A DNA stretch of 64,000 nt from Geobacter sp. AOG1 (GTDB taxonomy: Bacteria; Desulfobacterota; Desulfuromonadia; Geobacterales; Geobacteraceae): the NCBI RefSeq assembly GCF_019972315.1, contig NZ_BLIZ01000001.1, positions 2,641,521-2,705,520 of the forward strand, written 5' to 3'. The notes below the pieces were generated by a model that was given only the letters and a program-made list of their open reading frames with translations, was not told the origin of the DNA and did no database searches. The translations under genes were made by a program, and so were the position numbers. Shown piece after piece: positions 53,216 through 64,000 of this stretch. Within the stretch, counting starts at the first letter, position 1; each line of letters begins with the position of its first letter.

Positions 53216-53590
53216 ATGAAAAAAATTCTCATCGTTGACGACGAACAATCCATACTTCTCAGCCTTTCCTATGCGTTGAAGACTGAAGGAGTGGAAGTCA
53301 TAACCTGCAACGAGATAGAACAGGCCGAAGAGGCGCTGGCAAACACCCATTTCGACCTTGTCATCGCCGATATCCGGATGTCGGGTGTGAACGGCATCGA
53401 GGGGCTTGAATTGCTGAAGTTCATAAAAGACCGGTATTCTACCGAAGTGATTATCATGACCGGCTATGGCACTGCCGAGATCGAGTCCCTTGCCTATGAG
53501 CGCGGGGCGTTGCATTTTTTCAGAAAGCCCGTGGATATTCAGGACCTCCTGTCAAAAGTCGAGGGAATCGGTATCCCGATTAAACATTGA
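53216..53590 (+). CDS. Single-domain response regulator
   Basis: A 124-aa receiver domain: acidic pair in 'IVDDEQ', phospho-Asp in 'VIADIRM', Thr in 'IMTGYG' and Lys in 'FRKPV'. No output domain. First gene after the sigma-54 promoter, with GGGGAG upstream. It may act as a phosphate sink or as a regulator of the CheA pathway. Confidence 0.9.
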   Translation: MKKILIVDDEQSILLSLSYALKTEGVEVITCNEIEQAEEALANTHFDLVIADIRMSGVNGIEGLELLKFIKDRYSTEVIIMTGYGTAEIESLAYERGALHFFRKPVDIQDLLSKVEGIGIPIKH

Positions 53591-53628: not shown

Positions 53629-54027
53629 ATGCTCAAAAAAGTTCTTGTGGTTGATGATTCGGCCCTTATCCATCAAATGTACCGCCTGGTACTGTCACGG
53701 TACGCGTGCGAGATTGCCGATGCGATGAACGGGCAGGAGGCGCTGGATGAACTCGCACGACAGGACGATATTCAGCTTATTCTGCTCGACATCAACATGC
53801 CGGTCATGAACGGAGTACAGTTTCTCGAGAAAGCCACCGCTCTCGGGATTCAGCGTCGACTTCCCATAATCGTCATCAGCACCGAAGGGAAGGAGGACGA
53901 TACCATTCGTGCCCTCAAGCTGGGTGCTAAGGGGTATCTCAAGAAACCGTTTTCACCTCCGGACCTCTACACGTTGATCGAACAAATCATCCCGGGCGCC
54001 GTGCCTGCGCAGACATCCAAAGCATAG
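53629..54027 (+). CDS. CheY-like response regulator
   Basis: A 132-aa receiver domain with 'VVDDSALIHQM', phospho-Asp in 'LLDINMPVMNG', Ser in 'VISTEG' and Lys in 'LKKPFSPPDL'. The DDS start and the NMPVMNG loop are typical of CheY proteins. The CheA gene begins directly at its stop codon. It is the probable output of this pathway; it need not act on flagella. Confidence 0.9.
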   Translation: MLKKVLVVDDSALIHQMYRLVLSRYACEIADAMNGQEALDELARQDDIQLILLDINMPVMNGVQFLEKATALGIQRRLPIIVISTEGKEDDTIRALKLGAKGYLKKPFSPPDLYTLIEQIIPGAVPAQTSKA

Positions 54028-54039
54028 TTGGGGGATACG

Positions 54040-55707
54040 TTGGAGACTATTGATATATCTATTTTGCTCGAAGAGTACCTGGAAGATGCGTCAACCCATC
54101 TGGAGGCCGTGGAAGCAGGGCTTCTGGAGCTTGAGCGGCGCGGTGGCGAGTCTCCCGACCGATCGATCACGACCCTGCTCCTCGGCAATCTCCATACCCT
54201 GAAGGGGAATTCGGGGATGATCGGGCTCACGCCGGTGCAGCAGTACGTTCATAAGCTGGAAAGCGTGCTCAAGACGGTTTCGGAGCGTACTACGCCGCTG
54301 CCGGCTTCGTTCTTCGAGATCTTCTACGGTGCCATCAACCTGTTGCGGGAGACCCTGCGCCGGCTTTCCGCCAATCCCCGGGAGCAGCTGGATTTTACCG
54401 ATGAAATCATGGTGCTTGATTACGCTCTTGCCGGCGATGATGCCGAGTCAAGTTCTGCGCCACTTCCTGCCGTGAAAAAGGATGATTTCGCGTATATCAC
54501 ACAGAAGTCCACCACCCTGCGGGTAAATTTCGAAAAGCTCGATGAGTTGCTGAACCTGGTAGGGGAACTGGTGATTCACCGGACCGCCCTGCTCACGCTG
54601 GAGAAACGGGTAAGAGAAACGGTACAGGACCGTCAGCTCCTTGAATCCTTCACCGAGGCGAGCCAGATGATCGGCAAGAGCGCCGGCGACCTGCGCGAGG
54701 CGATTATGAAAGCGCGGATGCTGCCGGTCAAGGTGGTTTTCCAGCGCTTTACCCGCCTGGTGCGCGACCTTTCCCTACAGCATGGCAAGGAGATCAAGCT
54801 CGAGTTCGAGGGCGAAGGGACTGAACTGGACAAGACCGTCATCGACGAGATCGGCGAACCGCTTCTCCACCTGATCCGCAACGCAGTGGACCACGGCATC
54901 GAAAAGCCGTCGGCACGGCGCAAACAGAAGAAACCTGCCGCCGGTACCATCCACCTGTCGGCACGGCACGAGAGCAGCCATATCATCATCGCCGTCAAGG
55001 ACGACGGGGGCGGGATCGATGCGGACAAGGTGCGGAAGCAGGCGTTGAACAAGGGGCTGATCGACAGTGAACAGGCCAGTTCCATGGATGATTACGATGC
55101 CATGCAACTGCTCTTTCTCCCCGGGTTTTCCACCAGTAAGGAAGTGACCGAAACCTCCGGCCGGGGGATCGGTCTCGACGTGGTCAAGAACACGGTCAAC
55201 TCCTTCAACGGGCTGATCGATATCGACAGCACGCCGGGAAAGGGGACTACCTTCACCATCAAGCTCCCCCTGACCCTGGCCATCATCAACGCCCTCATGA
55301 TCGAGGTGGCAGGGGAAACCTTTGCCATTCCGCTTTCCGGTGTCCTGGAGAGCATCAAGATTGCTAACGACGAAATACATCAGGTGTCCGACGGCGAGAT
55401 CATCCAATTGCGGGAGAGGCTCTTGCCGGTTATTCGTCTCGATCGTTTCTTCGGTCTTGGGCGAACCAGGAGCGAGGTTGAAGAGTATGTAGTGGTGGTC
55501 GGCACCGGCGAAAAGCGGGGTGGCCTGGTGGTGGACCGGCTCATCGGTCAGCAGGAAGTGGTCATCAAGGGGATGGACGAATATCTGGGAGAACTGCCGG
55601 GCATTTCCGGGGGAACCGTCCTGGGTGACGGCCGGGTGGCCCTGATACTCGATATCGCATCACTCATAGTGAAAACCAGGAGAGGAGGAACACATGCCGG
55701 AGAATAG
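54040..55707 (+). CDS. cheA: Chemotaxis histidine kinase CheA (lacks P2 domain)
   Basis: A 555-aa kinase. The HPt domain has the phospho-His in 'LHTLKGNSGM' (residue ~52). A short linker (~130-155) replaces P2, the usual CheY/CheB docking domain. P3 dimerisation (~155-235), ATPase P4 ('HLIRNAVDHGIE', 'DDGGGID', 'GRGIGLDVV') and a CheW-like P5 (~420-550) follow. TTG 54040 is preferred because GGGGGAT lies before it; TTG 54028, directly after the cheY stop, is the alternative. The cheW start overlaps the end of this gene. Confidence 0.92.
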   Translation: METIDISILLEEYLEDASTHLEAVEAGLLELERRGGESPDRSITTLLLGNLHTLKGNSGMIGLTPVQQYVHKLESVLKTVSERTTPLPASFFEIFYGAINLLRETLRRLSANPREQLDFTDEIMVLDYALAGDDAESSSAPLPAVKKDDFAYITQKSTTLRVNFEKLDELLNLVGELVIHRTALLTLEKRVRETVQDRQLLESFTEASQMIGKSAGDLREAIMKARMLPVKVVFQRFTRLVRDLSLQHGKEIKLEFEGEGTELDKTVIDEIGEPLLHLIRNAVDHGIEKPSARRKQKKPAAGTIHLSARHESSHIIIAVKDDGGGIDADKVRKQALNKGLIDSEQASSMDDYDAMQLLFLPGFSTSKEVTETSGRGIGLDVVKNTVNSFNGLIDIDSTPGKGTTFTIKLPLTLAIINALMIEVAGETFAIPLSGVLESIKIANDEIHQVSDGEIIQLRERLLPVIRLDRFFGLGRTRSEVEEYVVVVGTGEKRGGLVVDRLIGQQEVVIKGMDEYLGELPGISGGTVLGDGRVALILDIASLIVKTRRGGTHAGE

Positions 55708-56254
55708 CGAGATAACACTCCCCCAATCGGGGCTGGCGGAGGATATCCTGTCCCAGTTCGTGGGAAAGGCCCAGCAGGAACTGGATGCAACCGCCACAGC
55801 TGTTGCGGCGCAGCAGGAGGAACAACTCCATCACCTGGTCACCTTCAGCCTGGGGCGCGAGGAGTACGGGGTCGATATCAGCAGCGTCCAGGAAATTATC
55901 CGGGCGACGGACATAACACCGGTTCCCGGTGCACCCGTCCATGTGCGGGGAGTTATCAACCTGCGGGGAAAGATCATCCCGGTGGTGGACCTGCGGAGCC
56001 GGTTCCGGATGGCGGCTGGGGAGACTACGGATGCCCAGCGGATCATCGTCATCGAGCTGAAGGGGAAGCGCCTCGGGATGCTGGTGGATGCGGTCTCCCA
56101 GGTGATCAAGATATCATCGGCCATTATCGAAGAGATACCGGAGGAGGCGATCACCCTGGACCAGAACTACATCAAAGGTGTCGGGAAGCTGGAGGGACGG
56201 CTGATCATCATTCTCGACCTGAACCGGGCACTTCTGCTGACTGACGGGAATTAA
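55694..56254 (+). CDS. cheW: Chemotaxis coupling protein CheW
   Basis: A 186-aa protein. An N-terminal extension of ~45 residues (Gln/Ala-rich helix) precedes a standard CheW domain: 'FSLGREEYGVDISSVQEII', 'GVINLRGKIIPVVDLR', and 'ILDLNRAL' at the end. It joins CheA to receptors. It overlaps cheA by 14 bp. Confidence 0.93.
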   Translation: MPENSEITLPQSGLAEDILSQFVGKAQQELDATATAVAAQQEEQLHHLVTFSLGREEYGVDISSVQEIIRATDITPVPGAPVHVRGVINLRGKIIPVVDLRSRFRMAAGETTDAQRIIVIELKGKRLGMLVDAVSQVIKISSAIIEEIPEEAITLDQNYIKGVGKLEGRLIIILDLNRALLLTDGN

Positions 56255-56301: not shown

Positions 56302-58608
56302 ATGCTTAAGAACATGAAAATCGGTGGACGGTTGACATTCGGGTTTGCCTTGATGCTTCTGCTCATGCTCGTGGTGGGTGGGGCGGGGTTCTGGGGGGTC
56401 AGGACCAGCACGGAGAAGACAATCGACATTCTCAGGGGGGATGCCTCCATATCCGAGCATGCCGCACGGGCCCGGGCCAATGTCGTCGGGCTCAGGCGCT
56501 ACGAGAAGGATATGTATCTCAATATCACCCAGCCGGATAAGGTGGCAGAATACGACAAGAAGTGGCGGGAACAGCTCGAGCATCTGAATACCCGTATGGC
56601 AGATCTCGATAAAATTGTCGTACTTCCTAAGGAAAAGGAAACGATGAAAGCGATGAAAGCCGATATCGCGGATTATGTAAAAGGGTTTGATAAGACTCAC
56701 GATGAAATCCTTGCTGGCCGCATAAAGACCCCCGAGGAGGCGAACAAGGCGATCACCCAGTACAAGGACGAGATGCACCGCCTGGAAGCAGCAGTCAAAG
56801 ACATGTCCGATGAAGCCAACAAGCGGATGGATGACACCGAGCCACACTTCAGGGCGCTGGCTGCGCGTACATTTACTATACTCACCGTCTGCATCGTTGT
56901 GGCCATAATTCTCTGCGTTATCCTCGGCGTGGTCATCACGCGGAGTATTACAACGCCGGTCAATACGGCCTTGGGAGTCGCCAACAAAATTGCTGATGGC
57001 GATCTGACCGTCACCATAGAGGCCACTACCCGCGATGAGGTGGGACAGCTGCTGGCCGCCATGGACAAGATGGCGGACAGTCTGCGGAGCATGATCGGGC
57101 GGATACGTTCCACGTCGGACCAGGTGGCATCGGCGGCGAACGAGATATCCAGCGGTTCCGTCCAGTTGAATCGTGCCGCGCACAGCCAGGCGTCGGCTGC
57201 GGAGGAAACATCGGCGACCATGGTGCAGATGGCGGCCTCCATCCAGACCGTGGCGGCCAACGCCGATTCCCTAGCCTCCAACGTGGACGAGGTTTCCTCG
57301 TCGGTGCAGGAACTGGGAGCCTCCAGTGAGCAGGTATCCAAGAGTGCCGAAGTGATGGCGTCGTCGGTTGCCGAGACCTCGGCCACCATCGAGCAGATGA
57401 CGGTCTCCATCGACCGGGTGGCCCAGAGCGCCGAAGAACTGGCGTCGTCCGTATCCGAGACCTCCTCCACCATTGAGCAGATGACCGTCTCCATCGACCA
57501 GGTGGCGGGGAACACCCAGGAACTGCAGCAGGTGGCGACCGACACAGCAGCAACCGTCGAGCAGCTGGCCATCTCCATCCGGGAATCGGCCAAGAACATA
57601 GAGTCGGCGGACGATGTGGCCAAGGCTGCGGCCAAGGAAGGCTCGGCGGGTCAGGAAGCGGTGCAGCAGGCGCTGGCGGCCATGGAGCGGGTGGGAAGCG
57701 TCATCGACAAGACCGCCGCCTCCATCGCCAACCTGGGGAAACGCTCCGAGGAGATCGGCAGCATCGTCAAGGTGATCAACGAGATTGCCGACCAGACGAA
57801 CCTCCTGGCGCTGAACGCGGCCATCGAGGCGGCGCGGGCGGGGGATGCGGGCCGGGGCTTTGCTGTGGTCGCGGAAGAGGTAAGAAAGCTGGCGGAGCGG
57901 AGCGTCAACGCCACCAAGGAGATCGGCGAAGTAATCAAGCAGGTCCAGGCCGACACCGGGGACTCGGTGAAGTACGGCGAACTGGCGGCCCAGGAAGCCC
58001 GTTCCTCCATGGAACTGTCCGGTGCGGCGGGGAACGCGTTGGCGAATATCGTCAAGAGCATCGAGCAGACGAGCAATCTCATGTCCGAGATATCCCTGAT
58101 GACCAATGAACAAGCCAACGCCTCCGGGCAGGTGCTGAAGTCGGTGGAGCGGATGACCCAGGCGACGGCCCAGGTGGCCAATGCGGCACGTGAACAGGCC
58201 CAGGGCGGGAAGCAGATCCGGATCGCCGTGGAGCGGATGAACACTGTCACCCAGGAAGTGACGGGAGCGACCAGGGAACAGACGTTAGGGAGCAAGCAGA
58301 TTCGGATAGCGGTGGAGAACATGAACAACGTGACCCAGCAGGTAAGCATCGCCACTAAGGAGCAGGCGTTATCGGCGCGGCAGATCGTGGAGGCGGTCAA
58401 CAGCATGAACAGCATGACCATGTCGGTAGCCAATGCGACTGCAGAACAGAAGAAGGGTGGGGAGATGGTGGTACAGGCGGTGGAGACCATCAGCGACAGT
58501 TCCCGGGAAAACCTCTCGTCGGTGGAACAGCTTTCCCGTTCGGCCCAAAACCTGTCCCAGCAGGCGATCGACCTGGCCGGCATGGTGGCGGAGTTCAAGG
58601 TGGCATGA
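56302..58608 (+). CDS. Methyl-accepting chemotaxis protein, long-arm signalling domain (768 aa)
   Basis: TM1 (~13-32), a helical periplasmic domain (~35-188, four-helix-bundle type), TM2 (~190-213) and HAMP (~214-266) precede a very long cytoplasmic coiled coil. The tip sequence '[41 protein letters not shown]' (split here by family, residues ~488-530) is the CheA/CheW contact. On each side lie five 28-residue repeats (57187-57606 and 58102-58521). No C-terminal CheR-docking pentapeptide is present. From 57078 on the gene is almost the same as its neighbour at 59891-61421. Confidence 0.92.
57078..58608 (+). repeat. 1,531-bp direct repeat, copy 1 (receptor signalling module)
   Basis: Same length as 59891-61421 with no insertion or deletion. 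By eye about 32 of ~508 encoded residues differ. Covers the full cytoplasmic module of both receptors; the sensor parts upstream are unrelated. Confidence 0.9.
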
Positions 58609-58706
58609 CGCCAAAGGAGGAAATACAGTTTCTTTGCTGAGCAGTGGAATCCCGCATTAATTGGTAATGTGATTCAATCGGTTATTCCTTACAGAAAGGA
58701 ATTGAT

Positions 58707-61421
58707 ATGAAAACGAGAATCATGAACTGGTCGCTCGGAAAGAAACTGGTCGTTGCCGAAGCCTTGCTGGTACTTGTTTTACTCAGTATATTCTCCACCT
58801 ATATCGGCACGTATACTGGCAATATGCTGGAGAAAAATGCAATCACCGATCTCAAGCGCCAGGTGAATCTAGTTAAAAGCATGCTTGAAGTGTATGACCA
58901 CAGTGTCACCCAAAGTACGGAAAAATTTGCAAACGTATTCACGTCCTATTTCCCCGAGAGGTTTCAGCTTGACACCCGCCGTACAGTGAAAATAGGAACG
59001 GTAGATACCCCGGTGCTGCTGCATGGCACCAGCGTACTCAATATGGATTTTGATACGATAGACCGTTTTACGAAGATGACCGGCGCGGTAGCGACGGTGT
59101 TTGCGAAAACAGGTGACGACTTCGTTCGGATCACCACGTCGGTAAAAAAGCAGGATGGTTCGCGGGCGATAGGAACCATGCTCGGCAAGAACCATCCTGC
59201 CTATGGTTTTGTCATGAAAGGGGAAAGTTACCTCGGCCGCGCCAATCTCTTTGGCCGGGACTATTCGACAAAATATGTGCCGATCAAGGATGGCGGCGGC
59301 ATGATCATCGGACTGCTGTTCGTCGGCATGGATACGACAGATGCATTGAAATTCATGAAAGAACAGATCAAGGAGATCAAGATCGGCAAGACCGGCTATA
59401 TCTACGCCTTGAATGCCGACCAGGGTGAACAGCAGGGGACGCTGGTTATTCACCCGTTTGAAGAGGGGAAAAACATCCTCGACTCCAAGGCCGCGGATGG
59501 GCGCGAATTCATCAAGGAGATTCTCAAGAACCGTGAAGGAGTGACCCATTACTACTGGCAGAACAAGGGGGAGTCGACCCCACGTGAAAAGATGGTGGTA
59601 TACACGGCGTTTGATGACTGGAAAATGGTGATTGCAGCGGGCGCTTACGAGGAAGAGCTATCTGCGGATGTGCGCACGTTGTATGTCGTCCTCTTTGCCG
59701 CGACCATTCTTATCATCTTGATCATGATAGGGATTTTGAATTATGCCGCAACTCGCATGGTTATCAAGCCTCTCCGGAGTGCGGTTGACTTTGCAAGCAT
59801 GGTGGCAGGGGGTGACCTCACTAATTCCATTCAAGTGCAGAGTAACGATGAAATAGGGACGCTCAGCAATGCCCTTAATCAGATGGTCGTCAGTCTGCGG
59901 AGCATGATCGGCCGGATACGCTCCACGTCTGACCAGGTGGCATCGGCGGCCAACGAGATATCCGGCGGTTCTGAGCAACTGAACCGTGCAGCCAGCAGCC
60001 AGGCGTCGGCTGCGGAGGAAACATCGGCGACCATGGTGCAGATGGCGGCCTCCATCCAGACCGTGGCAGCCAACGCAGACTCCCTGGCCTCCAACGTGGA
60101 CGAGGTTTCCTCGTCGGTGCAGGAACTGGGGGCGTCCAGCGAGCAGGTATCCAAGAGTGCCGAAGTGATGGCGTCGTCGGTTGCCGAGACCTCGGCCACC
60201 ATCGAGCAGATGACGGTTTCCATCGACCGGGTGGCCCAGAGCGCCGAAGAGCTGGCGTCGTCCGTATCCGAGACCTCCTCCACCATCGAGCAGATGACCG
60301 TCTCCATCGACCAGGTGGCGGGGAACACCCAGGAACTGCAGCAGGTGGCGACCGACACGGCGGCTATCATCGAACAGCTGGCCGTTTCCATCCGGGAGTC
60401 GGCCAAGAACGTTACCGCTGCGGATGATGTGGCCAAGGCTGCGGCCAAGGAAGGCTCGGCGGGACAGGAGGCGGTGCAGCAGGCGCTGATGGCCATGGAA
60501 CGCGTGGGGAACGTCATCGAGAAGACGGCCGCCTCCATCGCCAACCTGGGGAAACGCTCCGAGGAGATCGGCAGCATCGTCAAGGTGATCAACGAGATTG
60601 CTGACCAGACGAACCTCCTGGCGCTGAACGCGGCCATCGAGGCGGCGCGGGCTGGAGACGCGGGCCGGGGTTTTGCGGTAGTCGCGGAAGAGGTAAGAAA
60701 GCTGGCGGAGCGGAGCGTCAACGCAACCAAGGAGATCGGCGAGGTAATCAAGCAGGTCCAGGCCGACACCGGCGACTCGGTGAAGTACGGCGAACTGGCG
60801 GCCCAGGAAGCCCGTTCCTCCATGGAGCTGTCCGGCGTGGCGGGTAACGCCCTGGCGAACATCGTCAAGAGCATAGAAAAGACGAGCACTCTCATGTCCG
60901 ACATATCCCTGATGACGGGTGAACAGGCCAACGCCTCCGGGCAGGTGCTGAAGTCGGTGGAGCGAATGACCCTGTCCACGGCCCAGGTGGCCAATGCGGC
61001 ACGTGAGCAGGCCCAGGGCGGGAAGCAGATCCGGATTGCCGTGGAGCGGATGAACACCGTCACCCAGGAGGTAACGGGAGCGACCCGAGAGCAAGCCCAG
61101 GGGAGCAAGCAGATCCGGATTGCGGTGGAGAACATGAACAACGTGACCCAGCAGGTGAACATCGCCACCCGGGAGCAGGCGCTGTCGGCGCGGCAGATCG
61201 TGGAGGCGATCAACAGCATGAACGCCATGACCCTGACGGTGGCCAACGCCACGGCGGAGCAGAAGAAGGGCGGGGAGATGGTGGTGCAGGCGGTGGAAAG
61301 CATCAGCGACAGCTCCCGGGAAAACCTGGCCTCGGTGGAACAGCTTTCCCGTTCGGCCCAGAACCTGTCCCAGCAGGCAGTCGACCTGGCCGGCATGGTC
61401 GCCGAGTTCAAGGTGGCATGA
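58707..61421 (+). CDS. Methyl-accepting chemotaxis protein with Cache sensor and long-arm signalling domain (904 aa)
   Basis: TM1 (~12-32), a large periplasmic Cache-type sensor (~35-325; a segment with '[21 protein letters not shown]' resembles sCache_3, followed by '[18 protein letters not shown]' and '[18 protein letters not shown]' of sCache_2), TM2 (~328-350) and HAMP precede the long coiled-coil module. The module again has five 28-residue repeats per arm (60000-60419 and 60915-61334) and the standard tip. No pentapeptide. Cache domains of this type often bind small organic acids; ligand not predictable here. It shares its module with the receptor upstream. Confidence 0.92.
59891..61421 (+). 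repeat. 1,531-bp direct repeat, copy 2 (receptor signalling module)
   Basis: Partner of 57078-58608. The copies differ in patches (for example 60409-60420 and 60957-60975), with long identical stretches between, as expected from gene conversion. Confidence 0.9.
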
Positions 61422-61485: not shown

Positions 61486-62388
61486 ATGGCTGATGCAGTA
61501 TTCGATGAAATTCGGCAGTATGTACAGGAGAGAACCCGTCTCTGTTTCTCCGGACACAAGCGTAGCCTGCTGGGAAGCAAGCTGCAGCAGCGTGTGGATG
61601 CACTTGCGTTGCCGGACATGTCAGCATACAGGGACATCCTGCTCAACTCCCACTCCGAGGAAGTAGTGCTCCTCGACCTAATCACCACTAACGAAACCTG
61701 CTTCTTTCGCAACCCGCGCCAGTTCGACTATCTGCGCGACCATATCCTGCCGGCTCTCGAAGAGGAGAGGGGGAGTGCCAGTTTCCGCCGGTTTGCAACG
61801 GGCGAGCAACCGGGGCAGTTGAACGACATGCGGCTCCGGATCCTCAGTGCCGGGTGCTCCACGGGTGAAGAGCCATATACCGTTGCCATGACGGTTCTTG
61901 AAGGGCTGCGCTATCCCCGGGCGTGGGAAATCGACATCGTGGCCGGTGACCTGAGCGAAAGCTGCCTTGAAATCGCCAGGCGCGGCTCCTACGAGACTGC
62001 CCGCCTGAAGGGAATCCCTAAGATGTTGCAAAAAAAATATATGGATGCTTCCGATGACGGAGCTACCTTCAGGGAGGATGTCAGGCGGCTTATCAGATTC
62101 ATGCACCTCAATCTCAACGATGTCATGCAAAGTGATGGTGGAGGCGATACGCTTCCAGCGGGCGCCTTTGATATTGTCCTCTGTCGAAATGTCATGATAT
62201 ATTTTTCATCGGCCTGTCAGCAGCAATTGGTAAATTCTCTGTATCGTATCATTGCCCCCGGCGGATACCTGCTCACCGGTGATGCAGAGCCGCTCCATCT
62301 GTTCAGGCATGACTTCACGCCGGTTCGTGAAGCCGGTTGCCTAATTTATCGAAAAACGGGGTCCAACGCGCATGACCAAGCTGTCTGA
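61486..62388 (+). CDS. cheR: Chemotaxis protein methyltransferase CheR
   Basis: A 300-aa SAM-dependent methyltransferase that methylates receptor glutamates. N-terminal helical domain (~1-75) with 'LLDLITTNETCFFRNPRQF', SAM loop 'ILSAGCSTGEEPYTVAM', and 'VLCRNVMIYF' near residue 242. No TPR or other extension. Its end overlaps the HEAT-repeat gene by 17 bp. No cheB is seen in the window. Confidence 0.95.
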   Translation: MADAVFDEIRQYVQERTRLCFSGHKRSLLGSKLQQRVDALALPDMSAYRDILLNSHSEEVVLLDLITTNETCFFRNPRQFDYLRDHILPALEEERGSASFRRFATGEQPGQLNDMRLRILSAGCSTGEEPYTVAMTVLEGLRYPRAWEIDIVAGDLSESCLEIARRGSYETARLKGIPKMLQKKYMDASDDGATFREDVRRLIRFMHLNLNDVMQSDGGGDTLPAGAFDIVLCRNVMIYFSSACQQQLVNSLYRIIAPGGYLLTGDAEPLHLFRHDFTPVREAGCLIYRKTGSNAHDQAV

Positions 62389-64000
62389 TCGGTTCCGTTC
62401 CAACGTTGCAATCCTGGAGGGTCGGCCGGTGATCGAACTCCTCCTCCTCGTCGGAGACGAATCGAAGGGGTGCAAACAGGAAGCTCTCGACATGCTCCTG
62501 CTCCGTGATTTCGATACCATCTATCCCACACTGGAACATGGCGTCCGGAACAATGCTCTTGCCGACCTGCGTAACGGAGCCATGGAAGTGCTGGTTCATT
62601 TCGGCCGGCAATCAGTCCCCCGGCTCGTTGAGCTGCTGCATGACAAGGACGAAGAAGTCCGCAATTTCAGCACGGTCATGCTGGGTGACATTGCCAGCCG
62701 GGATGCTGTAGAGCCTCTTATCGCCGCACTCAATGACCCCGATGCCAATGTTCGGCATGGCGCTGCCGAAGCGCTCGGGAGAATCGGCGACCGTTCGGCC
62801 CTGCTGCCGCTGCTCAAGCTTCTCAGGGAAGACTTCTGGCAACAGTATCCCGCTTTGGCCGCCATCCGCGAAATGCGTGACAATCGGGCAGTTCCCTACC
62901 TGTTGCCGCTGGTGAACGACGAAATGCTGGGTGAACCGGCCATTGAGGCGCTGGCAACCATAGGAGACCCTCGGGCAGTGCCATCCCTTGTTGCTCTCCT
63001 TACGACAGCGTCGTCTTTACGATCCGCAGCGGCTGTACGGGCCATTTATTCCATCTGTACCGGTGAAGCGGAAAGGGGAGCGGGTGCTTTCACGTTGCAC
63101 CAGTCGCTGGAGCCGGTGACAGTTGTGGAGAAACTGCGCCAACTTGCCGGAGCTGAAGATGAGGCGACTGCAACAGCGGCGCGAGCCCTCCTGGATTTAC
63201 GCGATGGGATTCATAACCCACCGGCCGACAGTTCGATCTCTGCGGGTGCGATCGTCGGTGGTGAGCAAGGTGTCGGCCCAGGCATCGTGAATAACGTACA
63301 AGTACAGGCCTCCCTTGCGGATTTGGACTCAGGGGTACCTCTCGAAGTGGTGCTGAATCGGGCTCACTCCGCTGGCGCGAGTCTTGAGCAGGCAATTATC
63401 GATGCATTGGGTCGGAAAGGGACAAGCGATGCTGTCGAGGCCCTACTTGCTTTGCTGGAAAGGTTCGATAACCCGCGACATGTGGAATTCGCCATTGTAC
63501 ATGCGCTTGCGGCGGCAACGCCCTGCGGTCACATTGCCGGAAATGGCCTTAGACCATTTGCAAATCACCCGGACCCTGACATGCGCCGCCTTACCCTGCA
63601 GGCGTTGACCAGCCTCGACCCTGGCGAGGCGCTCCCAGCGGTTTTCCGTGCGGTTAACGATCCCCACTGGAGCGTAAGGATTGAAGCGCTGAAATTGCTG
63701 ACGGGTATTGGTGGTGATGAAGCCGTGGATTGTTTGCTGGCAGCACTTGTCGATACTGACGTTCTTGTACGCAAAAACGCTGTTGCCGGACTGGGGAAAC
63801 TGGGGAGCATGAAAGCCGTCGTCCCTCTGGTGAATTTGCTGTGCGACAAGGAAGTCGGTCGCGGGGCGTTCGATGCCCTCCTGGCACTCGGGGAAACGGC
63901 ATTGCCTGAACTTCACGCTTATGCAGGAAAAGGTTCGCTGGAGGTGCGCGAACGGGTCATTGACCTCGTCGGCAGATATGGTTCGAAATCAAGCATACCC
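62372..64000 (+). CDS. HEAT-repeat protein, 3'-truncated by window edge
   Basis: The frame from ATG 62372 stays open to the window end (543 codons visible). It consists of HEAT/PBS-lyase-type repeats of about 30 residues, with recurring 'AVEPLIAAL...VRHGAAEALGRIGD' and 'VRKNAVAGLGKLG' patterns. A less regular middle portion (~residues 225-330) breaks the series. HEAT proteins are scaffolds for protein contacts. Its start lies inside cheR, so translation is coupled and it probably works with this chemosensory system. Specific partner unknown. Confidence 0.85.
   Translation, partial: MTKLSDRFRSNVAILEGRPVIELLLLVGDESKGCKQEALDMLLLRDFDTIYPTLEHGVRNNALADLRNGAMEVLVHFGRQSVPRLVELLHDKDEEVRNFSTVMLGDIASRDAVEPLIAALNDPDANVRHGAAEALGRIGDRSALLPLLKLLREDFWQQYPALAAIREMRDNRAVPYLLPLVNDEMLGEPAIEALATIGDPRAVPSLVALLTTASSLRSAAAVRAIYSICTGEAERGAGAFTLHQSLEPVTVVEKLRQLAGAEDEATATAARALLDLRDGIHNPPADSSISAGAIVGGEQGVGPGIVNNVQVQASLADLDSGVPLEVVLNRAHSAGASLEQAIIDALGRKGTSDAVEALLALLERFDNPRHVEFAIVHALAAATPCGHIAGNGLRPFANHPDPDMRRLTLQALTSLDPGEALPAVFRAVNDPHWSVRIEALKLLTGIGGDEAVDCLLAALVDTDVLVRKNAVAGLGKLGSMKAVVPLVNLLCDKEVGRGAFDALLALGETALPELHAYAGKGSLEVRERVIDLVGRYGSKSSIP

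Follow-up and report, generated by a model that had tools for sequence, protein, structure and literature searches.

Two neighbouring chemoreceptors of Geobacter sp. AOG1 have signalling hairpins of 72 heptads (72H), which are longer than the length classes of the literature surveyed, yet belong to a known chemoreceptor type. Both arms of each hairpin are equal and carry five related 28-residue units, and unit number differs in pairs between receptors. The genes lie on the forward strand of a 64,000-nucleotide stretch of contig NZ_BLIZ01000001.1, called the window here, and their open reading frames were confirmed at 56302..58608 (receptor A, 768 aa) and 58707..61421 (receptor B, 904 aa). A 4HB_MCP_1 sensor in A and a Cache_3-Cache_2 sensor in B are each followed by HAMP and the hairpin (MCPsignal, PF00015; 172.4 and 167.1 bits for the pair, curated cut-off 34.6). 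The descending arm of A (57187..57606) consists of units N1-N5 of 84 bp each, starting at 57187, 57271, 57355, 57439 and 57523, of which N2 is weak. It is followed by the flexible bundle with a 17-residue tip motif (57607..58101; turn placed near aa 513/514) and by the ascending arm with units C1-C5 (58102..58521), which start at 58102, 58186, 58270, 58354 and 58438. In B the descending arm, bundle with tip and ascending arm occupy 60000..60419, 60420..60914 and 60915..61334, again on the forward strand. A rung, as used here, is a pair of facing units, one from each arm; related units make up 5/9 of the 28-residue blocks in each 36-heptad arm.

Identity peaks at a lag of 28 residues in three of the four whole arms, and in the descending arm of B this lag is second behind 56. 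For the 140-residue blocks of units, identity at lag 28 amounts to 0.42-0.46, whereas heptad-preserving shuffles average 0.17-0.23. Column shuffles of the unit blocks of A and B never matched the observed value (0/5,000 per arm), and whole-heptad shuffles did so in 1, 0, 0 and 0 of 5,000 for the four arms. When successive 28-residue stretches of A are scored, nine of its ten units reach z 2.5-4.8, and the flanks N0, N6 and C6 remain at -0.8, -1.3 and -0.7. Unit N2 (z 1.1) does no better than the flanking stretches C0 (1.4) or N8 (1.6), but in raw similarity to the remaining units it scores 41.5, compared with 11.2 for C0 and -1.0 for N8. The five ascending units are thus clear, and the descending count of five hinges on accepting a diverged N2. 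Passages of PMC6628036 describe paired heptads as a general chemoreceptor property, which would suit generic coiled-coil periodicity as the sole cause, with no true repeat and with arms equal as in any hairpin. Given a lag-28 signal that heptad-preserving shuffles reproduce at most once in 5,000, and units that in nine of ten cases reach z of at least 2.5, we regard this explanation as scarcely credible. The preliminary description had proposed five units per arm in both receptors, and was right in this and in the unit starts that it quoted. Its statement that the middle units are very similar holds for one pair per arm, namely N3/N4 (71% aa and 79-80% DNA identity in A and B) and C2/C3 (67-75% aa, 64-75% DNA).

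The heptad length classes reportedly originate from Alexander and Zhulin in 2007, a work outside our literature search; within that search, the one use of "28-residue" with heptads in chemoreceptors that was followed concerned a linker in another protein. With E. coli Tsr as yardstick (143/125 residues for 36H), the anchors give 269/251 residues in A and B, which is 36.0 heptads on either arm and thus 72H. The proposed 72H class comprises 61 receptors that are anchored at both ends and have 36 heptads in either arm. Among the parsed frames no arm exceeded 36 heptads, including the single anchored end of 58 half-anchored receptors. In the MiST3 class list 64H is the longest class and 56H is absent; according to passages of PMC6628036, "a few rare receptors" lie beyond the listed classes. 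The question arises whether receptors longer than 64H have perhaps been filed as 64H. An assignment of A and B themselves to 64H was rejected on the Tsr yardstick and on their 269/251 residues, as opposed to the 241/223 that correspond to 32 heptads. We likewise abandoned a "+24H cassette" (48, 52, 58 and 64 as 24, 28, 34 and 40 + 24), which fitted the published list, since the 56H and 72H receptors step by a single unit pair.

Among the closest known counterparts is the 64H ("40+24H") class of Geobacteraceae and Desulfuromonas described in parts of PMC8235581 and PMC3543383, which shares with A and B the long symmetric hairpin of Desulfuromonadales. From their heptad count we infer that these are the receptors with 241/223 residues (n=46), whose consensus has four 28-residue units on each arm and of which the AOG1 genome itself holds three. 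A and B differ from them in having 36 rather than 32 heptads per arm, five units and another ten-residue tip motif (64H rows mostly have IIAAQAGEHG or EQG), and the two groups form separate tree clades. Tsr has the same layout of HAMP, hairpin and tip, but its arm is half as long, with a single unit on each side of the hairpin in the repeat register, i.e., one rung instead of five. The 56H receptors with three units per arm (L055, L053, L163, L164) share the tip motif and a similar unit consensus with A and B. Judged by eye, N1, N2 and the final ascending unit can be matched between the two groups, and the two units per arm that the 56H receptors lack are best placed as the middle ones.

As the preliminary description had held, both arms carry the same number of units. 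Arms are equal in 159 of the 172 receptors anchored at both ends (the other 58 of 230, not anchored at both, were left out), a count that is mildly circular, as the 48 receptors used to train the anchor profiles had been chosen for their matching arms. Among the receptors analysed, none was found whose arms differ in unit number. The explanations for the 13 unequal receptors were found post hoc and are incomplete for two, L077 (several HAMP-like segments, none symmetric) and L249 (a short or odd C-end). In seven, the second-best HAMP-like site lies 39 residues further on, exactly where symmetry requires, scoring above the cut-off of 14 in L232, L285, L286 and L315 and below it in L053 (9.4), L284 (6.1) and L279 (1.0). 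Four more carry N-side inserts of another kind: L242 and L246 have a weak HAMP-like site (0.7 and 2.4) 57 residues on, and L245 and L248 a non-repeat linker. The 48H receptors are equal (5/5) only when measured from a second HAMP, the score of which exceeds the cut-off in four of the five; in L034 one arm is one residue short.

Forms with one, two, three, four and five units per arm were all found, but those with differing unit numbers fall in separate tip clades, and therefore establish no line of descent. The tree places two 4+4 receptors, L141 and L142, among the 5+5 receptors of Geobacteraceae. Counted from the tip, their deletions fit best at residues 107-160 in the N arm and 113-148 in the C arm, in an overlapping, facing middle region, although the overlap is possibly due to chance because both must fall in repeats; codon-level crossover points could not be placed within units. 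The nesting is forced by well-supported branches in the quick tree, not in the careful one. None of 200 bootstrap trees has the 39 Geobacteraceae-type 5+5 rows on one side of a branch, and an AU test does not reject them as a clade without the 4+4 receptors (p=0.28). Paired loss of units in L141 and L142 appears the simplest reading, which rests on one clade and falls short of proof. Taken together, the series of forms and the nested pair with its facing deletions suggest that receptor length changes in 84-bp pairs. Of the earlier proposal that length grows by paired 84-bp additions, the paired 28-residue steps stand, but growth does not, loss being the simplest reading of the sole change located on a tree. 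Tentatively, length might evolve in quanta, a facing 28-residue pair being gained or lost at the same height along a 40-48-56-64-72H series, with each rung also an adaptation module. If so, length class would amount to an inherited number of rungs by which arrays within a single cell stay separate. Why only some heptad lengths exist, and how two gene segments that lie apart come to change in step, are questions that this family makes testable, with its natural receptors of one to five units per arm and one nested five-versus-four difference.

The 5+5 state is common to Geobacteraceae, Nitrospirota and Acidobacteriota, which makes the five-pair stalk look like an old, stable design rather than a recently expanded one. 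A recent tandem expansion, with units added lately and the similarity of the middle units reflecting their age, was suggested in the preliminary description and is not borne out. N3/N4 and C2/C3 are indeed the most alike in A and B, and in Geobacteraceae they resemble copies of one rung: N3 and N4 mostly match the N3 of other phyla (72% and 71% of 702 non-independent pairs), C2 and C3 mostly their C3 (79% and 82%), and these duplicated-looking units appear to face each other. Against this stand the three phyla and the Nitrospirota rows of 45-55% identity, all 24 of which are free of net indels (by subtraction from alignment rows). Furthermore, at third positions N3/N4 and C2/C3 have diverged further than the two receptors have from each other (71-75% identity for N3 vs N4, 86% for A vs B over the same units), and homogenisation by gene conversion could account for the similarity. 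We consider a recent expansion improbable. The tip-proximal units lack one-to-one identity between phyla (N5 49%, C1 26%).

Both receptors stand within a run of chemosensory genes, all on the forward strand: a receiver-only response regulator (53216..53590), a CheY-like response regulator (53629..54027), a CheA kinase with Hpt, dimerisation, HATPase and CheW domains (54028..55707) and a CheW coupling protein (55694..56254) precede them, and a CheR methyltransferase (61486..62388) and a 605-aa HEAT-repeat protein (62372..64000, extending past the window) follow, then a second CheR and CheB in L305. CheA also adjoins a 72H receptor in L306-L311, as judged by eye from ORF starts. Parts of PMC2577667 describe che clusters of delta-proteobacterial Geobacter; the alpha and beta groups given there have no mcp genes, in contrast to the two 72H receptors, two cheR and HEAT gene found here.

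We consider it probable that A and B are inputs of one chemosensory system, with a five-rung 72H hairpin, paired unit change and an array at its own height. As transmembrane inputs they would serve CheA, CheW, CheY, two CheR, CheB and the HEAT-repeat protein. Adjacent similar units may permit 84-bp slips in either arm, and since a one-sided slip would disrupt the facing of the two helices, only receptors with both arms changed would survive. Gene conversion may also carry complete hairpins from one receptor to another; a third 72H receptor of the same genome has 93-100% DNA identity to B in the hairpin and 57-67% upstream of N1. At 10.5 A per heptad pair (from a passage of PMC6628036) the stalk would measure about 378 A, compared with about 189 A for 36H, and would hold the CheA/CheW layer at a height of its own; A and B would then assemble with each other, to the exclusion of shorter receptors in that cell, e.g., 64H. 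One title in the reference list of PMC6628036 concerns independent signalling by length classes. The most likely role of the two receptors would be to give the neighbouring CheA/CheW/CheR/CheB system a separate array, matched in length. An AF2 model matches the tip of the E. coli receptor in 6s1k (100 columns, rmsd 1.3, TM 0.92), but the monomer has pTM 0.56 and helix breaks at residues 103-107 and 397-401, its arms are unreliable and it lends no support to the arm layout. Ranked by E-value, the Foldseek matches begin with an unrelated protein (8w20, TM 0.22), followed by chemoreceptors.

Alternatively, the repeat may be an amplified adaptation module, with Glu/Gln in methylation register on every rung, so that five rungs multiply the CheR/CheB sites and length is a by-product. 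Tsr residues 304 and 311, which we take to be known methylation sites, correspond to unit positions 7 and 14, and residue 493 to ascending position 3. In 36 non-redundant 72H receptors E/Q/D occupies descending position 7 at 0.86-0.97 and position 14 at 0.78-1.00 per unit, and ascending positions 3 and 4 at 0.78-1.00; the operon, besides CheA and CheW, holds two CheR and one CheB. E/Q/D is abundant at other unit positions too, however, and the strict methylation motif occurs 1-9 times per 72H receptor (mean 3.7), whereas the 36H receptors (n=26, some of them nearly identical) average 4.8. On this balance we hold the amplified module to be unlikely, and prefer the length-matched array. In 64H receptors the strict motif is scarce (0.7).

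Both arms of the signalling hairpin in the neighbouring chemoreceptors A (56302-58608) and B (58707-61421, both on the forward strand) contain five 28-residue (84-bp) units, N1-N5 descending and C1-C5 ascending, as the preliminary description held. Judged from A alone, N2 is a weak unit (z 1.1, against 2.5-4.8 for the remaining nine). Identity at a lag of 28 residues is 0.42-0.46 inside the unit blocks, and the repeat exceeds coiled-coil periodicity: none of 5,000 shuffles per arm preserving the residue composition at every heptad position matches this identity. With whole heptads shuffled (5,000 trials per arm), one arm has a single trial that matches the observed identity and the other three arms have none. 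The descending arm, counted between a HAMP motif and the tip, comprises 269 residues in A and B; the ascending arm, with a C-terminal F-R/K-hydrophobic motif as its far anchor, comprises 251. The same anchors give 143 and 125 in E. coli Tsr, which is listed with 36 heptads in the accessible text of PMC6943060. A and B thus exceed Tsr by 18 heptads per arm, which makes 36 per arm, or class 72H by the heptad number over both arms. They belong to a known receptor family, as a longer variant whose paired repeat is unusually regular.

The class list of MiST 3.0, as far as excerpted, spans 24H to 64H, and the available part of a geometric study describes classes of 12 to 32 paired heptads and a few rare receptors that seem longer (PMC6628036). 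No paper combining "72H", "chemoreceptor" and "heptad" was found in a library of openly licensed papers. The genome has 13 MCPsignal matches, 12 of them above the cut-off. Class 72H is represented by A, B and a third receptor, L003/L156, and class 64H by three receptors (L004, L005 and L009, with arms of 241 and 223 residues); the others are shorter or without usable anchors. A single 676-aa frame with two weak successive MCPsignal matches, one below the cut-off (L012 and L013, G000:C1:634088-635356), is possibly a degenerate double receptor domain.

The equality of the two arms extends well beyond A and B. Among 230 distinct receptor frames parsed from fetched loci, both anchors were present in 172, and 159 of these have equal arms, in a sample skewed toward long forms by the choice of queries and with anchor profiles trained on 48 receptors with matching arms. 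The equal arms comprise 17 (n=1), 18 (36H, n=26), 19 (n=1), 20 (40H, n=23), 22 (44H, n=1), 25.57 (n=2), 28 (56H, n=2), 32 (64H, n=42) or 36 heptads (72H, n=61). Seven of the 13 unequal receptors carry a second HAMP-like site 39 residues on, exactly at the symmetric position (above the cut-off in four, weaker in three). Two (L242, L246) have a weak HAMP-like site 57 residues on, two (L245, L248) a linker without repeats, and L077 and L249 fall under none of these. A 72H ascending arm with enough N-side sequence occurs in 57 receptors, 55 of which are anchored at 36 heptads, and in L017 a profile fits the same position; seven further receptors with this arm are cut on the N side and lie outside the 57. 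In the last of the 57, L034, a metagenomic member of the 72H group, the descending arm is one residue short near the tip, representing either an unequal arm or an assembly error.

The proposal that receptors lengthen by paired units is partly supported, in that forms with one to five units per arm exist. A recognisable consensus is present in one unit per arm in 40H, two in 48H (L232, L284, L285, L286, L315), three in 56H (L053, L055, L163 with its N side masked, L164), four in 64H and five in 72H. In the five 48H receptors and L053 the arms are equal only when measured from the second HAMP. The forms occupy separate clades of the tip-region tree and therefore constitute a series of states, not a line of descent. 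Three units per arm are likewise present in five receptors (L276, L277, L279, L281, L320) of the phylum to which an Acidobacteria genome belongs. Their flexible bundle is shorter by 17 residues on each arm, a symmetric difference yet no whole number of heptads.

Paired loss is the favoured, though not proven, explanation of two receptors with four units per arm, L141 and L142, from two genomes of one genus of Geobacteraceae. They are probably orthologous, judging by eye from their similar sensors. The tree places them among 39 distinct 5+5 rows of the Geobacteraceae type, and none of the 200 bootstrap replicates of the careful tree has a branch that separates these 39 from all other rows. Well-supported branches alone force the nesting in the quick tree but not in the careful one, and the alternative survives the AU test (p=0.28). 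When all possible deletion sites were scored against 72H profiles, the best placements (two receptors, two profiles) put the missing units at 107-160 residues from the tip on the descending and 113-148 on the ascending arm, which overlap; for 3+3 receptors they lie at 81-141 and 78-156. Chance overlap would not be rare, because the repeats occupy just part of each arm.

The suggestion of a recent expansion is not supported. Receptors of class 72H are also found in Nitrospirota and Acidobacteriota, and third codon positions of similar units are more diverged than those between A and B: identity is 71-75% for N3/N4, against 86% for A and B over the same arm, and 39-57% for C2/C3, against 78%. 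Of 48 genomes from the family, 21 have a strong match to the ascending arm of A (E 1.4e-54 or better). Coordinate subtraction gives no net indel over the matched span in 24 rows, a few of them partial, that are 45-55% identical to the receptor L045, and in six of the newly parsed loci both arms are likewise anchored at 36 heptads. Between phyla (702 pairs), the membrane-proximal units mostly correspond one-to-one (N1 94%, N2 89%, C4 99%, C5 100%); the tip-proximal units do not (N5 49%; C1 26%, with C1 matching C4 in 66%). In Geobacteraceae, N3 and N4 both match N3 of other phyla (72% and 71%), and C2 and C3 both match C3 (79% and 82%). Counted in residues from the tip, N3 lies opposite C3 and N4 opposite C2, the units of a pair being displaced by about nine residues. 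We take these matches and facing positions to suggest that on both arms one rung, a descending unit with its opposite, has either overwritten the adjacent rung or been homogenised with it.

Since unit sequences differ between the arms, a single slip could not change both. Unequal intermediates would have to be short-lived, or else whole hairpins would be exchanged. Such exchange between receptors does seem to happen. L003/L156 (G000:C1:3637500-3643500), 0.94 Mb distant and with a different sensor, is 93-100% identical to B in DNA over a stretch that begins within N1 and ends shortly before the stop codon; identity is 83% in the comparison interval at the start of N1 and 57-67% immediately before it, a pattern suggestive of a gene-conversion or domain-copy tract. 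Exchange accounts for the spread of the hairpin, not for its origin.

At about 10.5 A per heptad pair, as stated in the accessible part of PMC6628036, 36 pairs yield a coil of about 378 A, and 72H receptors would keep their CheA/CheW layer separate from those of shorter classes. Independent signalling by length classes is the subject of a title in the reference list of that paper. Every rung may instead repeat the methylation-site register, at which Glu/Gln are conserved; we place this reading second to the separate layer because the strict methylation motif is patchy. At its tip, an AF2 monomer (m787f36120acd; pLDDT 83, pTM 0.56) resembles the E. coli receptor of structure 6s1k (100 columns, rmsd 1.3, TM 0.92). 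Its helix breaks mid-repeat at residues 103-107 and 397-401, which face each other at 146 and 148 residues' distance from the tip. The monomer is no guide to the stalk; the breaks are perhaps due solely to the absent dimer partner.

Both receptors have HAMP and MCPsignal domains; the sensor is a four-helix bundle in A and Cache in B. They lie in a chemosensory operon of response regulator, CheY, CheA, CheW, A, B, CheR and a HEAT-repeat protein, continued just beyond the window by a second CheR and CheB. Visual inspection of ORF starts at 72H loci from further genomes of the family places CheA next to the receptor in L306-L311. It also shows a second CheR gene in L306, L307 and L311 and a CheB gene in two of these, L307 and L311. 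The HEAT-repeat protein (605 aa; 62372-64000, continuing in L305:393-2210) is flanked by the two cheR genes, and ORFs of similar appearance by eye are located close to cheR in L306-L309 and L311. At the 72H locus L311, a stand-alone zinc-binding chemoreceptor domain (CZB) protein (L311:10331-10738) is encoded between two receptor genes.
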